Positions 33,097 to 37,114 of a stretch of DNA of 64,000 bases are shown here, in pieces. The notes beneath the pieces are model-generated. The model was not told where the DNA came from. It made no database searches and saw nothing but the letters and a program-made list of their open reading frames with translations. Each line of letters opens with the position of its first letter. Position 1 is the stretch's first letter. A program made the position numbers and the translations under genes. Where the stretch lies: positions 1-64,000 of the forward strand of contig JAAWEK010000025.1 of the NCBI GenBank assembly GCA_022794265.1, given 5' to 3'. Origin of the DNA: Lachnospiraceae bacterium. Its GTDB lineage: Bacteria > Bacillota > Clostridia > Lachnospirales > Lachnospiraceae.

Positions 33097-35199
33097 ATGG
33101 GAATAGCTAAAACATTGAGACGGAACATAGGTATGCTGACCATAGGGTTAATTGTGGTGGCGGCAGTTTCATTGTTTTATTACAATATAATGGCATATAC
33201 GGAGAAAAACGGTACGGTAAACGGTACGTATGTCAATATCCGTACCAGTGCGGGAACTGCCGGCAACAGCAATAAACTTACCTATAACGGAAATTATGTT
33301 CAACTGAATATTGGTGACTCTGTAAGAATTATTGATGAGACACATGCTGCAGACGGGGCGTTGTGGTATAAGATTAAGTTTTCTTATACGGGAGGCGTGG
33401 AACTTACCGGATTTGTCCATGGGAATTATGTAGATGTGGAAAATACTTCATATGAACCGGACGGTGATTTTGAAAATTACCTGAATGCACAGGGATTTCC
33501 GGAAAGTTATAAATCAGGACTGCGAATGCTGCATGCCAAATATCCAAAATGGGTATTTGTGGCGGATCATCTGGACTATGAATGGGCAGAGGTAATTCGG
33601 AATGAAAGTCTGGTGGGCCGGAATCTGGTATGGTACAATTCTATCAGTTCATGGAAGTCTCTGGCTCCTGGTTCTTATAACTGGGACAAGGGGACATGGA
33701 ATACTTTTGATGGATCCAGCTGGGTTTCGGCATCCGAGGAACTGATTTCATACAGCATGGACCCTAGAAATTTTCTGGATGAGAGAACCATATTTATGTT
33801 TGAGCTGTTGTCTTTCAATGCGGGAATACACAAAGAAGAAAATGTAGAGTCTCTGCTGAATGGAACCTTTATGGGACATGCCGAAGCTGAGACAGGAAAA
33901 ACCTATGCCAGAACATTTATGGAGGCGGCGGCACAGTCCGGCGTCAGTCCGTATCATCTTGCTTCCAGAGTTATTCAGGAAGTGGGAACCTCTGGTACTA
34001 CCGGAGGCGTAACGGGAAATTACCGGCCGGCAACCGGAAATGTTTATACCGGATTGTATAATTTTTATAATATTGGAGCGTATGCTGCTGACGGAAGAGG
34101 TGCCGTTGAAAATGGACTGATTTATGCATCCAGATCGGACCCCATGAATCTGCGTCCATGGAATACAAAATATAAAGCCATTGTGGGAGGCGCTATATTT
34201 ATTGGTTCCGGTTATATCAATATCGGTCAGGATACGTTATATTATGAGAAATTTGATATGATTGGAGACCCCTATACCCATCAGTATATGTCCAATATAC
34301 AGGCGCCCAAATCAGAGGCAGTGAAAATGTCCAATGCTTATACTGAGACAATGAAGCAGACCATACCATTGGTGTTTAAGATTCCGGTATATAAAAATAT
34401 GCCGGCGGCTGCCTGTGAATGTCCCACCGGCGACGGAAGTCCCAATAATGTACTGGATAATATTGTAGTGGATGGATATTCGTTAACCCCTACCTTTAGT
34501 AAATTCACAACTCAGTATGACCTGATTGTGCCTCATACCGTGGAAAGCATTAAAATAAGCGCGGCGGCTATGGATGGAAATGCGGTGATTTCCGGTACGG
34601 GTAAGAAAACGCTGCAGGTAGGAAGCAATCTGTTTGAAATCAGGGTTACGGCCAGTAATGGCGGGGTGAGAACTTATACGTTAACGGTGGTGCGAAAGGC
34701 AGCAAATGATGTTGGAAATGAACCGTCTCCAAAGCCTCCGGAAGAACCGACTACAGGTTCGGGAACTGTAGGAACCGCGGAGTATTCTACCAGTTACAAT
34801 GTTCAGGATGACATTTATATAACCGGAATCCAGCCTGGAACGGCGGTCAGCAGTTTTACATCCGCATTTACTTTAAAGGGCTGTACAATGGAGATTTATC
34901 AGGCTGACGGAAAGACCCCGTTGACAGGATATATTGGAACGGGCAGCCGTATACTGATTCGTGATATGAATGGAACCGGAGTAAAGGAATATGCGTGTAT
35001 TATATATGGTGATATCAATGGGGACGGTCAGGTGGATATTGTAGATATGTTATATATGAAGAGACATATTCTGGGAACTTCTTCACTGAACGGACTCAGG
35101 GAAATAGCAGCCGATGTTAATAAAAAAGGCGGTATTGATATTGTAGATATGCTGTATATGAAGCGGCACATATTGGGACGCAGTTACATATCACAATAA
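33097..35199 (+). CDS. Secreted glucosaminidase-type cell-wall hydrolase with C-terminal dockerin
   Basis: The 700-residue protein has an N-terminal membrane or signal segment (about 13-33), then an SH3-like domain (about 38-115). Next comes a glucosaminidase-family region (about 120-410) that opens with the characteristic KYPKWVF and NESLVGRNL and contains SRVIQEVG. A cadherin-like beta-sandwich domain (about 455-540) and a Pro/Thr linker follow, then a type I-like dockerin at the end. The dockerin has two near-identical repeats: GDINGDGQVDIVDML and ADVNKKGGIDIVDML, each followed by YMKRHILG. The second calcium loop has Lys where position 5 is normally Asp or Asn. AAAGGAG precedes ATG 33097. 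It likely acts on peptidoglycan outside the cell, and the cohesin protein encoded next is the obvious docking partner. Confidence 0.85.
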   Translation: MGIAKTLRRNIGMLTIGLIVVAAVSLFYYNIMAYTEKNGTVNGTYVNIRTSAGTAGNSNKLTYNGNYVQLNIGDSVRIIDETHAADGALWYKIKFSYTGGVELTGFVHGNYVDVENTSYEPDGDFENYLNAQGFPESYKSGLRMLHAKYPKWVFVADHLDYEWAEVIRNESLVGRNLVWYNSISSWKSLAPGSYNWDKGTWNTFDGSSWVSASEELISYSMDPRNFLDERTIFMFELLSFNAGIHKEENVESLLNGTFMGHAEAETGKTYARTFMEAAAQSGVSPYHLASRVIQEVGTSGTTGGVTGNYRPATGNVYTGLYNFYNIGAYAADGRGAVENGLIYASRSDPMNLRPWNTKYKAIVGGAIFIGSGYINIGQDTLYYEKFDMIGDPYTHQYMSNIQAPKSEAVKMSNAYTETMKQTIPLVFKIPVYKNMPAAACECPTGDGSPNNVLDNIVVDGYSLTPTFSKFTTQYDLIVPHTVESIKISAAAMDGNAVISGTGKKTLQVGSNLFEIRVTASNGGVRTYTLTVVRKAANDVGNEPSPKPPEEPTTGSGTVGTAEYSTSYNVQDDIYITGIQPGTAVSSFTSAFTLKGCTMEIYQADGKTPLTGYIGTGSRILIRDMNGTGVKEYACIIYGDINGDGQVDIVDMLYMKRHILGTSSLNGLREIAADVNKKGGIDIVDMLYMKRHILGRSYISQ

Positions 35200-35216
35200 C
35201 AGTGAAATTTTTTAGG

Positions 35217-35261
35217 AAAGGAAAAATGCAGACAGTCCAGGGCTATGCATGGGTTAAATAA
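35217..35261 (+). promoter_or_regulatory. Cohesin-gene leader with coupled 11-codon uORF
   Basis: AAAGGA (35217-35222) is followed by ATG 35226, which opens MQTVQGYAWVK; its TAA (35259-35261) overlaps the cohesin ATG at 35261 as TAATG. ATGCA (35226-35230) and TGCAT (35246-35250) can pair. The flanks AGGAAAGGAA.ATGCAGA and GCATGGGT match the purM leader. Confidence 0.5.
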
Positions 35262-37114
35262 TGAATTTAAGAATGAAAAAAATACTAACCGGACTATTGT
35301 TAAGCGTTCTGTTTATTGGCTGGAAGCACATTGATGCCATGGCCGGAACGGTAAATATATCAGCGGGTTCCGTGGAGGCTTCCGAGGGAGAAACCATTAA
35401 TGTTCCGATTACACTGGCGGCGGATGCCGTAATGGGGGTCGCAGAAATTTATATTTCTTATGATAGTGCCCTTTTAGAGTATAATGGCGGAGAGGGAGCC
35501 GGTGGAGCCGGTTTGATTAAGTATGTTTTTTATGAGATGGATGAGACCGGTAAGGGAAAAACCTTTAATATTTCCTTTACTGCTAAAAAAGCAGGAACTT
35601 CTGCCGTTAATATTGACAGCAATTCCAGAGTTCTGGAAGATACGGATGGTGAAGTGTTTATGTCCGTGGCATCAGCGCCGGGTCAGGTAACTATATCAGC
35701 ACCGGCATCTGCCTCCTCGGACTGTAATTTATCGGGACTATCGGTTTCGGCAGTGCGTTCCTCGGGGGACAGTGTAAATGTAGAATTTATACCTGGATTC
35801 TCGCCGGATGTATTTGAGTATAAGGCAGAATTGGCAGAGGATGTGGAAAGACTGGTGATTTCCACGACTTTATCTGATCAGAACGCTACAACCCAGGTAT
35901 CCGGTACCAGAATTGATCCAGGTGACAATAAAACCACGATTACAGTTGTGGCGGAAGACGGAACCAGCCAGACCTATACGTTGTATACCACCCGGGCGGT
36001 GGCATCTACTACCACACCGGAAGAAACTACTACGGCAGATACGCCGGGAGAGACTACACCAGCGGAATCAACGGCGCCGGAGATAGACCGTTCACCGGTT
36101 TATATTGAGGCTATCGGAAAATATATTATTCAGGATACCAATTTAATCACACCGCCAGAGGGATTTGAAGAGAATACTGCCACATATGACGGAAGAACCG
36201 TTGTATCGTTCCGGGGAATATCAAAACCATTGACATTACTGTGTCTGGCCGATGATACGGAAGGAACAAATCAGGTATTTTATATTTTAAATGAAATTGA
36301 TGGATCCATGAACCGGATGGTAAATCTGGCGACGAATCAGAAAATATATACCATTATTCCAACAGGAGCAGATTATGCAGGGCCGGAAGGTTATACAGCC
36401 ACAACTCTGGAAATCAACGGTGAGAATATTAATGCGTGGATGAAAGAAGAAGGCAGTGAATTTTATGTGGTTTATGCGATGAATTATAATGGTGAAACGG
36501 CCTTATATGTGTATGATAAGAAGGAAGAGACCATGCAGAGGTTTGCAGTGGGGAACAAGGCGGACGGAAGCGTAACGGAGCCGTCGACGGATGACAGTGC
36601 GGTAAAATCTCTGCAGAATAAATATACAAATCTGAAAAAAAGATATGAGGATGATAAAACAACGAAAAAAAGGATTATCATAGGTCTTGGGGCAGGCTGT
36701 TTTGTTTTGCTTCTTTTATGTATCATTCTTATGTTTAAGGCAAATATAATAAAAGAGGATGAAGAAGAAAACGAAGAGGAAGATAAGATACTGGGAGAAG
36801 ACTCCAAACAGGAGTTGAAACTGGATATGGTTGCCCAGGTAAATGAAATGAAAGCGGAAAAGCTTGCGGAAAACATAAATAATGTTCTGGAGCAGCAGGA
36901 TAGTTCCCAGAATGAAACGGCAGGACAGGAAGAGGAAAATGTACAGGACGGCCAGCCTGATGCCGGACATACGGAAGCATCACAGACGGAAGAAACGTCA
37001 GAACCGGAACAATCCAGAGAAGATGAGCCGTCAAAGAAACAGATAGAGGAAATGGAAGAAGAGGAACCTTTTGAAATTGAATTTGTAGATTTGGAAGACG
37101 GAGAAGACAAATAA
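35261..37114 (+). CDS. Membrane-anchored cohesin-domain protein
   Basis: The 617-residue protein has a signal peptide (about 1-29), a cohesin-like domain (about 30-148), a cadherin-like beta-sandwich (about 155-247) and a Thr/Pro/Glu-rich linker (248-275). An unrecognised domain (about 280-430) and a short coiled coil (448-468) follow. One transmembrane helix (about 471-493) precedes a strongly acidic cytoplasmic tail of about 120 residues. The cohesin call rests on the opening GSVEASEGETINVPITL, the IYISYDSALLEYNGG strand and the jelly-roll-like strand pattern. Cohesins bind dockerins in cellulosomes; here the only visible dockerin is on the hydrolase encoded immediately upstream. Anchoring is by a transmembrane helix, not sortase or SLH. 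No catalytic domain is seen. Confidence 0.75.
   Translation: MNLRMKKILTGLLLSVLFIGWKHIDAMAGTVNISAGSVEASEGETINVPITLAADAVMGVAEIYISYDSALLEYNGGEGAGGAGLIKYVFYEMDETGKGKTFNISFTAKKAGTSAVNIDSNSRVLEDTDGEVFMSVASAPGQVTISAPASASSDCNLSGLSVSAVRSSGDSVNVEFIPGFSPDVFEYKAELAEDVERLVISTTLSDQNATTQVSGTRIDPGDNKTTITVVAEDGTSQTYTLYTTRAVASTTTPEETTTADTPGETTPAESTAPEIDRSPVYIEAIGKYIIQDTNLITPPEGFEENTATYDGRTVVSFRGISKPLTLLCLADDTEGTNQVFYILNEIDGSMNRMVNLATNQKIYTIIPTGADYAGPEGYTATTLEINGENINAWMKEEGSEFYVVYAMNYNGETALYVYDKKEETMQRFAVGNKADGSVTEPSTDDSAVKSLQNKYTNLKKRYEDDKTTKKRIIIGLGAGCFVLLLLCIILMFKANIIKEDEEENEEEDKILGEDSKQELKLDMVAQVNEMKAEKLAENINNVLEQQDSSQNETAGQEEENVQDGQPDAGHTEASQTEETSEPEQSREDEPSKKQIEEMEEEEPFEIEFVDLEDGEDK

Follow-up and report, generated by a model that had tools for sequence, protein, structure and literature searches.

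A dockerin-bearing, SagB-like glucosaminidase and an adjacent single-cohesin membrane protein as a predicted docking pair in Lachnospiraceae

Introduction

The binding of dockerins by cohesins is familiar chiefly from the machinery that degrades plant fibre. What, then, is held together, and where, when a dockerin sits on a predicted cell wall hydrolase and the neighbouring gene encodes a cohesin on a membrane protein? This question is raised by a 64,000-nucleotide stretch of DNA from a Lachnospiraceae bacterium (assembly GCA_022794265.1, contig JAAWEK010000025.1, positions 1 to 64,000; hereafter the window). We use H for the dockerin-bearing glucosaminidase, gene and protein, and S for the adjacent cohesin membrane protein. 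H (33097..35199, + strand) is an open reading frame (ORF) of 700 amino acids for a predicted exported SagB-like glucosaminidase with a C-terminal type I dockerin, and S (35261..37114, + strand) is an ORF of 617 amino acids for a single-pass membrane protein, predicted to have its N-terminus outside, with one cohesin. An initial annotation, made from the sequence alone, had described the two as a private docking pair at the cell surface; the ORF listing of the window places both genes at the coordinates given there, on one strand and with H upstream, and the observation as a whole was confirmed. Here we report that H and S probably form a one-to-one, calcium-type cohesin-dockerin complex by which a predicted peptidoglycan glucosaminidase is kept on the outside of the cell's own membrane.

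The dockerin of H and the cohesin of S

The dockerin of H (residues 635-700; 34999..35196, +) was recognized by Pfam, by fold and by the symmetry of its two repeats. Specifically, Pfam Dockerin_1 (PF00404) matched residues 637-693 with 48.6 bits against a cut-off of 22.9, and the model of the domain has the three-helix fold, lying within 0.7 A of 2ccl_B over 62 residues. The cohesin of S (residues 28-150; 35342..35710, +) had originally been called by eye. It passes the cut-off of Pfam Cohesin (PF00963) on residues 31-131 (28.2 bits vs 24.1; 32.4 bits in a profile search of its own genome), and fold comparison of the AlphaFold model identified the N-terminal domain as a cohesin jelly roll, not the non-cohesin beta sandwich that would have contradicted the call. 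A chance or misread cohesin was ruled out by the profile score and the fold comparison together.

The two dockerin repeats are nearly identical, as the initial annotation had noted, with 15 of 17 residues alike between 646-662 and 680-696. Its remark that an acidic residue is wanting in the second calcium loop also held: loop 1 is canonical, and loop 2 (DVNKKGGIDIVD, starting at residue 673) has Lys677 at position 5. Such a second loop is frequent in the family. Among 76 dockerins (those of 131 rows in which neither repeat has a gap and position 12 is D, E or N), the 12-residue loop rule was passed by loop 1 in 76/76 and by loop 2 in 50/76, with 26/76 failing.

Repeat symmetry in the same 76 dockerins was strong at positions 17/18 (identity 0.94 within vs 0.33 between proteins) and 10/11 (0.74 vs 0.14), neither value being reached in 2000 permutations (0/2000 each). 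We take these positions to be the recognition sites of the dockerin; their numbering, like the binding face assigned to the cohesin below, follows the cellulosome literature. Repeat identity was 0.73 within a protein but 0.53 when a repeat was compared with its counterpart in the nearest relative, and the repeats of one protein were closer to each other than to the relative's in 46 of 66 cases, with 7 ties (p 3.5e-7; 10 rows more than 80% identical were left out). Recent gene conversion was judged unlikely as the main cause of this symmetry because identical repeat residues had the same codon in just 449 of 858 cases (52%), barely above the 45% expected, although some conversion is possible. 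Such symmetry would be expected if selection favoured two equivalent binding faces.

Coevolution of dockerin and cohesin

We compared the 76 dockerin-cohesin pairs by mirror-tree analysis, using partial correlations that control for catalytic-domain distance. The dockerin-cohesin correlation was 0.30 (0/300 permutations, which preserve phylogeny only in part), whereas the controls gave 0.08 for the dockerin and the cadherin-like domain of S (42/300) and -0.05 for the X-module-like domain of H and the cohesin. In a thinned set of 64 pairs the values were 0.27 (0/200) for dockerin-cohesin vs 0.06 (40/200) for dockerin-cadherin, and in two subsets, split by presence of the X-module, the dockerin-cohesin correlation was 0.18 (3/300, n=53) and 0.54 (0/300, n=23). 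In addition, S columns covarying with the 17/18 code (z >2.5) were more frequent in the cohesin (34/109) than in the cadherin-like domain (9/84; Fisher p 8e-4). These results support, at the level of sequence covariation, binding of the H dockerin by the S cohesin.

The cadherin-like control bears directly on another explanation, namely that H and S associate through these domains and that the cohesin and dockerin bind something else. As originally stated, both proteins have the same domain type: Pfam Cadherin-like (PF12733) covers residues 463-534 of H and 174-245 of S, within beta sandwiches delimited by Pfam and the models at residues 453-533 of H (34453..34695, +) and 153-245 of S (35717..35995, +). 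Furthermore, adjacency of H and S is kept where the dockerin is absent (see below). However, the dockerin coevolves with the cohesin, and its correlation with the cadherin-like domain of S is at noise level; we consider association through the cadherin-like domains highly improbable.

Domain architecture of H

The AlphaFold model of H has a mean predicted local distance difference test (pLDDT) score of 89.2. Residues 1-33 (33097..33195, +) form a signal or anchor helix (helix 2-27 in the model) with a candidate signal-peptidase site between NIMA and YTEK, and under a loose rule such a site follows the hydrophobic core in 78 of 79 complete dockerin-type H proteins. An SH3-type domain follows at residues 37-114 (33205..33438, +), identified by fold comparison and by profile matches to bacterial SH3-like chains of the PDB; Pfam SH3_3 remained below its cut-off. 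The glucosaminidase domain occupies residues 120-438 (33454..34410, +). Between the cadherin-like domain and the dockerin lies a beta module in an X-module-like position (residues 562-634; 34780..34998, +), modelled with pLDDT blocks of 88-97, to which no Pfam name could be given at E up to 1. The initial annotation had missed the SH3-type domain and the beta module; the domains that it did name are all present, and its reading of the protein as a glucosaminidase-type cargo with a terminal dockerin was borne out by profile and fold.

The best structural matches of H were SagB entries. Fold comparison and the row alignment show a SagB-type catalytic fold with a conserved glutamate, the candidate catalytic Glu295 being the same in 48/48 rows. 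On the other hand, H scored 57.8 bits against the NCBIfam SagB equivalog NF052642, under the curated cut-off of 425. H is a relative of SagB, not SagB itself, and fold and alignment support its prediction as a peptidoglycan glucosaminidase.

Domain architecture of S

S has a cohesin, a cadherin-like domain, one transmembrane (TM) span and an acidic tail, as first described; what had been called a linker is mostly a folded domain. Residues 280-429 (36098..36547, +) form a membrane-proximal, internally repeated beta domain in a confident AlphaFold model (pLDDT blocks 87-96, one block 70), with consecutive half matches in some genomes, and no Pfam name was found for it. The true linkers are short (about 246-279 and 430-445). 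Residues 445-505 (36593..36775, +) form a long helix that contains the TM span at about 472-490, assigned by TM prediction and the model. Residues 506-617 (36776..37111, +) are a mostly disordered acidic cytoplasmic tail (pLDDT blocks 36-62) ending in EEEEPFEIEFVDLEDGEDK; in the 126-127 residues after the TM span, 45 are D/E and 11 are K/R. The mean pLDDT of the whole model is 78.6. With one Pfam cohesin and one predicted TM besides the signal peptide, S is the membrane-anchored, single-cohesin scaffold that had been proposed.

Distribution of the pair and its chromosomal setting

Co-occurrence was surveyed in 200 genomes of the family that were at least 90% complete, with matches at E up to 0.001. 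S had matches in 119 genomes and H in 128, both upper bounds because some matches (e.g., that of genome G011 to H) run only through the cadherin-like domain. Of the 77 genomes with both among the matches listed, 65 had H and S side by side in the same orientation. Of the 12 other genomes, G180 has the genes adjacent on inspection (locus L136). G022 has an H fragment at a contig end beside S, G183 and G125 have H and S on separate contigs near their ends, and the inspected region of G063 has S without H.

Named genomes were scanned with a profile of dockerin-type H. In the best 80 of 584 confirmed stretches, S lay directly downstream of H at 70. Six of the remaining 10, all from Ruminococcus or other Clostridia-type records, were without S (L164, L165, L168, L171, L213, L218); of the other four, L208 and L211 end less than 1 kb from H, L198 has an S-like ORF upstream and L222 has an intervening ORF. 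The gap between H and S had a median of 20 bases (allowed range -150 to 600). The named loci with the pair include Roseburia inulinivorans and Lachnospira multipara, and the pair is very probably spread over the family Lachnospiraceae. Note that almost identical H genes occur in records titled Muribaculaceae and Blautia, and that a Thermoflexaceae-titled record groups with Lachnospiraceae in the tree (L169, L170, L146); these are probably mislabelled bins. In a Roseburia inulinivorans draft (L194, 5848-8202) the H dockerin is apparently frameshifted, either a real loss or a draft error.

In total, 161 loci were examined, chosen by matches to H or S; after removal of 25 without the pair and 5 duplicates, 131 distinct loci remained. 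They were divided, by a pattern applied to the 130 C-terminal residues of H, into dockerin-type H (class A), H with a glycine-rich tail (class B) and H with neither (class C). Two loci, L166 and L195, were moved to the dockerin group by eye, and L194 was put with the dockerins in the tree only; class labels in the class, genome-content, tail and neighbour counts predate the move. Class proportions are not population frequencies, since loci were chosen by H or S match or by closeness to dockerin-type H.

In the window, purE-M-N-D lie upstream of the pair, and a GntR-type regulator gene and clpC lie downstream (purD and gntR named from Pfam; purE, purM, purN and clpC by eye from the translations). 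Among loci with room, clpC was downstream in 65/113 (class A, 28/66; class B, 4/7; class C, 33/40), and pur genes were upstream in 30/114. The presence of clpC downstream in all three classes suggests that the variants of the H terminus are changes at one ancestral locus.

Results weighing against a dedicated docking pair

Several results weigh against the docking reading, beginning with the coevolution analysis itself. In the n=53 subset the X-module-cohesin control rose too (0.10, 21/300). The contrast between cohesin and cadherin-like columns was small for the 10/11 code (5/109 vs 1/84), the excess of covariation on the 8-3-6-5 face, which we assume to be the binding face, was mild (one-sided p 0.026), and the highest mean covariation fell on strand b4, off that face. 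Cadherin-like columns also had a mean z above 0 (1.13).

Moreover, the pair is not strictly private. The initial annotation's word fits most of the surveyed dockerin-type genomes and a same-genus relative (G153), in which the only dockerin is that of H and the only cohesin that of S, but not the own genome, which has three dockerins besides that of H. The proteins that carry these three were read by eye. One is a 445-residue protein (contig C9, position 203631; locus L003, 517-1854) with starch-binding-like repeated modules (by eye) and an RHS-like C-terminal stretch. The other two are tandem 104-residue secreted proteins that consist of hardly anything besides a signal peptide and a dockerin (contig C1, 28714-29262; L004, 1450-1764 and 1834-2148, - strand), possibly free competitors for a cohesin. 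The single S cohesin could serve all four dockerin proteins as a minimal cellulosome-like surface platform, for which speak the ratio of one cohesin to four dockerins and the KR at positions 17/18 that one repeat of one small protein has in common with H. Otherwise the codes differ by eye: both H repeats have IV at 10/11 and KR at 17/18, the 445-residue protein has EK and ER/EQ, and the small proteins have QT/QQ then LN/KR and NK/QE then IM/QK. In G153 the dockerin of H is the only one. We regard the platform as unlikely. A classic cellulosome was ruled out by the lone Pfam cohesin of the own genome, with no multi-cohesin scaffoldin; no second cohesin was found by Pfam in this 91%-complete genome, where weaker or missing ones are possible.

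A single dockerin match is present in 28 of the 33 dockerin-type genomes of the survey; it is placed in H in 23, and in 5 its place is not among the matches listed. Pfam cohesins number one (that of S) in 23 of the 33, none in nine and two in one, and 16 are shown with exactly one dockerin and one cohesin, both in the H-S pair. Note that one locus (L106) was entered twice in these counts because S is split, and that G043 has two loci.

The next point concerns H without a dockerin. At E up to 0.01, Pfam detected a dockerin in 81 of the 131 H proteins and a cohesin in 70 of the 131 S proteins. At nine loci (L115, L118 and L120-L126) the C-terminus of H is instead a tail rich in glycine and proline that finishes with a motif like GPGGSNVTIVP, or SNVTIVP in short, possibly an alternative docking peptide; at 40 loci H has neither, about 30 of them stopping at the cadherin-like domain (by eye). 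A quick tree of H, weakly supported at many forks, requires at least 7 changes of the dockerin label; its well-supported branches force 5 for the dockerin group, set there against every other row, including H without S. In the 34 rows without an H dockerin, S still has a Pfam cohesin in 15, and 26 of the 34 are in genomes without any dockerin match. S is likewise found where H is missing from this chromosomal position, between purD and clpC in L085 (5016-6836; genome G011, with no dockerin match) and between purD and gntR-clpC in L142 (6493-8304). Because S cohesins persist without dockerins and S occurs without H beside it, docking H is not the sole job of S; its cohesin-like domain might bind something else, or a different contact might hold H. 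The earlier interpretation as a dedicated docking pair is partly supported, by a real cohesin and dockerin, a wall-hydrolase cargo, a membrane-anchored scaffold with a single cohesin, co-occurrence within the family and, in addition, coevolution, and is weakened where S keeps its cohesin without an H dockerin and where S is found without H. At L139, L140 and L141, S homologues lack an adjoining H and lie beside or close to a gene read by eye as glmS, with which the supply of amino sugars to the wall begins.

These loci bear on a reading in which the main role of S is that of a membrane sensor, or of a receptor for wall integrity, that has a cytoplasmic output of its own, and H is a recurrent, dispensable extracellular accessory tethered to S in some lineages. 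Besides S at L085, L142 and L139-L141, the membrane-proximal domain of S argues for it: residues 280-429 have one match in the own genome and matches in 31 genomes of a 293-genome class sample, 24 outside the family (two of them marginal, E about 6e-4 and 7e-4) and 7 inside. So does the cytoplasmic tail. In the 127 complete S proteins, 4 of which have no TM by the rule used, tails of at least 60 residues were found in 59/74 of class A and 9/9 of class B, and an acidic-aromatic end motif such as DDDFEFIDLD is frequent on long tails (by a loose pattern, class A 23/59, class B 9/9, class C 8/19). A DNA pattern for this motif matched 9 times, in 8 of 12 chosen genomes (4 had no match), and by their coordinates all 9 matches lie within S; the reversed control gave 0 matches in these 12. 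As the genomes were picked because their S carries such an end motif, the search shows only its scarcity elsewhere in them. That the tail might signal or bind division machinery, as first suggested, would find its support in its acidity, its often great length and its recurring end motif. Nevertheless, tails were shorter than 35 residues in 19/40 class C proteins, so that a large cytoplasmic output is not universal. No link was seen between long tails and clpC adjacency, clpC being downstream at 43/78 long-tail and 22/32 short-tail loci. Given that H and S are adjacent at most loci examined and that the dockerin-cohesin coevolution is specific, the sensor reading is possible but doubtful to us.

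Discussion

The nearest functional comparison for H and S is the SagB-SpdC complex (6u0o), likewise a membrane-held glucosaminidase. According to PMC10581084, SpdC of Staphylococcus aureus, the partner of SagB, is a CAAX-protease homologue, whereas S is a single-pass protein with a cohesin; Pfam gave no match to a CAAX-protease-like membrane domain in S at E up to 1, and one TM is predicted besides the signal peptide. Both folds resemble those of cellulosomal type I cohesin-dockerin pairs (6kgc, 1ohz, 2vn5, 2vn6), and the repeat symmetry matches what dual binding would lead one to expect. Here, however, one cohesin stands on a membrane-spanning protein with a cytoplasmic tail, and the cargo is a predicted peptidoglycan hydrolase. 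The glycosidase cohesins of Clostridium perfringens (2jh2, 2w1n, 2vo8) are likewise non-cellulosomal, and in 2w1n a beta sandwich follows the cohesin as in S, but these cohesins sit on the enzyme, while that of S sits on the membrane receptor.

Cohesin-dockerin systems usually display foraging enzymes, and H might be a nutritional or competitive enzyme acting on foreign peptidoglycan or host glycans and displayed by S. For this speak the dockerin-bearing cell wall hydrolases and lysozyme activity that PMC6403190 reports for Ruminococcus cellulosomes, where a wall hydrolase enters a cohesin-dockerin system as H does. ScaK of R. champanellensis is a lysozyme (PMC6780208), and X modules of R. bromii adjoin domains annotated as wall hydrolases or autolysins (PMC5814915). 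The Ruminococcus hydrolases are cellulosome parts, whereas H and S are encoded side by side, in many cases in genomes where no further cohesin was matched. The SagB entries found as best structural matches of H and, among the neighbours searched for, the clpC and pur genes argue against foraging (sugar-use genes elsewhere are possible), to which we give only a slim chance. Dockerin-bearing wall hydrolases as such are already known (PMC6403190). In the open-licence papers searched, no description of the H-S pair was found; within this literature, three points appear to be new: a dedicated single-cohesin membrane receptor encoded next to the hydrolase, how widely it occurs, and the repeated switching from one way of docking to another.

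For the one-to-one docking of H by S, we propose the following sequence. H would be exported and its signal peptide probably removed, and its dockerin would bind the single cohesin of S, as the coevolution suggests. Because the recognition residues are alike in both repeats, either repeat can probably bind, in a dual mode. S, predicted to cross the membrane once, would keep the catalytic domain near new peptidoglycan, where H may shorten glycan strands or set them free, by homology with the action of SagB and SpdC. The S tail, often long, probably contacts a cytosolic partner via its end motif. After dockerin loss, the pair is probably joined by another contact, or H is untethered.

A broader and tentative extension is that Lachnospiraceae and some related Clostridia have a vertically inherited transmembrane wall receptor, in which one cohesin would capture one peptidoglycan hydrolase, a repeated sensor-like domain would lie at the membrane, and a fast-evolving acidic tail with a DDDFEFxxIDL-like motif would couple docking to a cytosolic partner; the docking mode would have been swapped repeatedly among dockerin, SNVTIVP-like glycine-rich tail and neither.

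Cohesin-dockerin parts appear here as a one-to-one tether for an enzyme of the cell's own wall, and the 76 pairs compared offer dozens of naturally diverged partners for recognition studies. If the docking reading is true, it would account for cohesins and dockerins that occur singly in genomes lacking cellulosomes, and it would give a testable answer to how Lachnospiraceae hold a potentially lethal hydrolase at the membrane.

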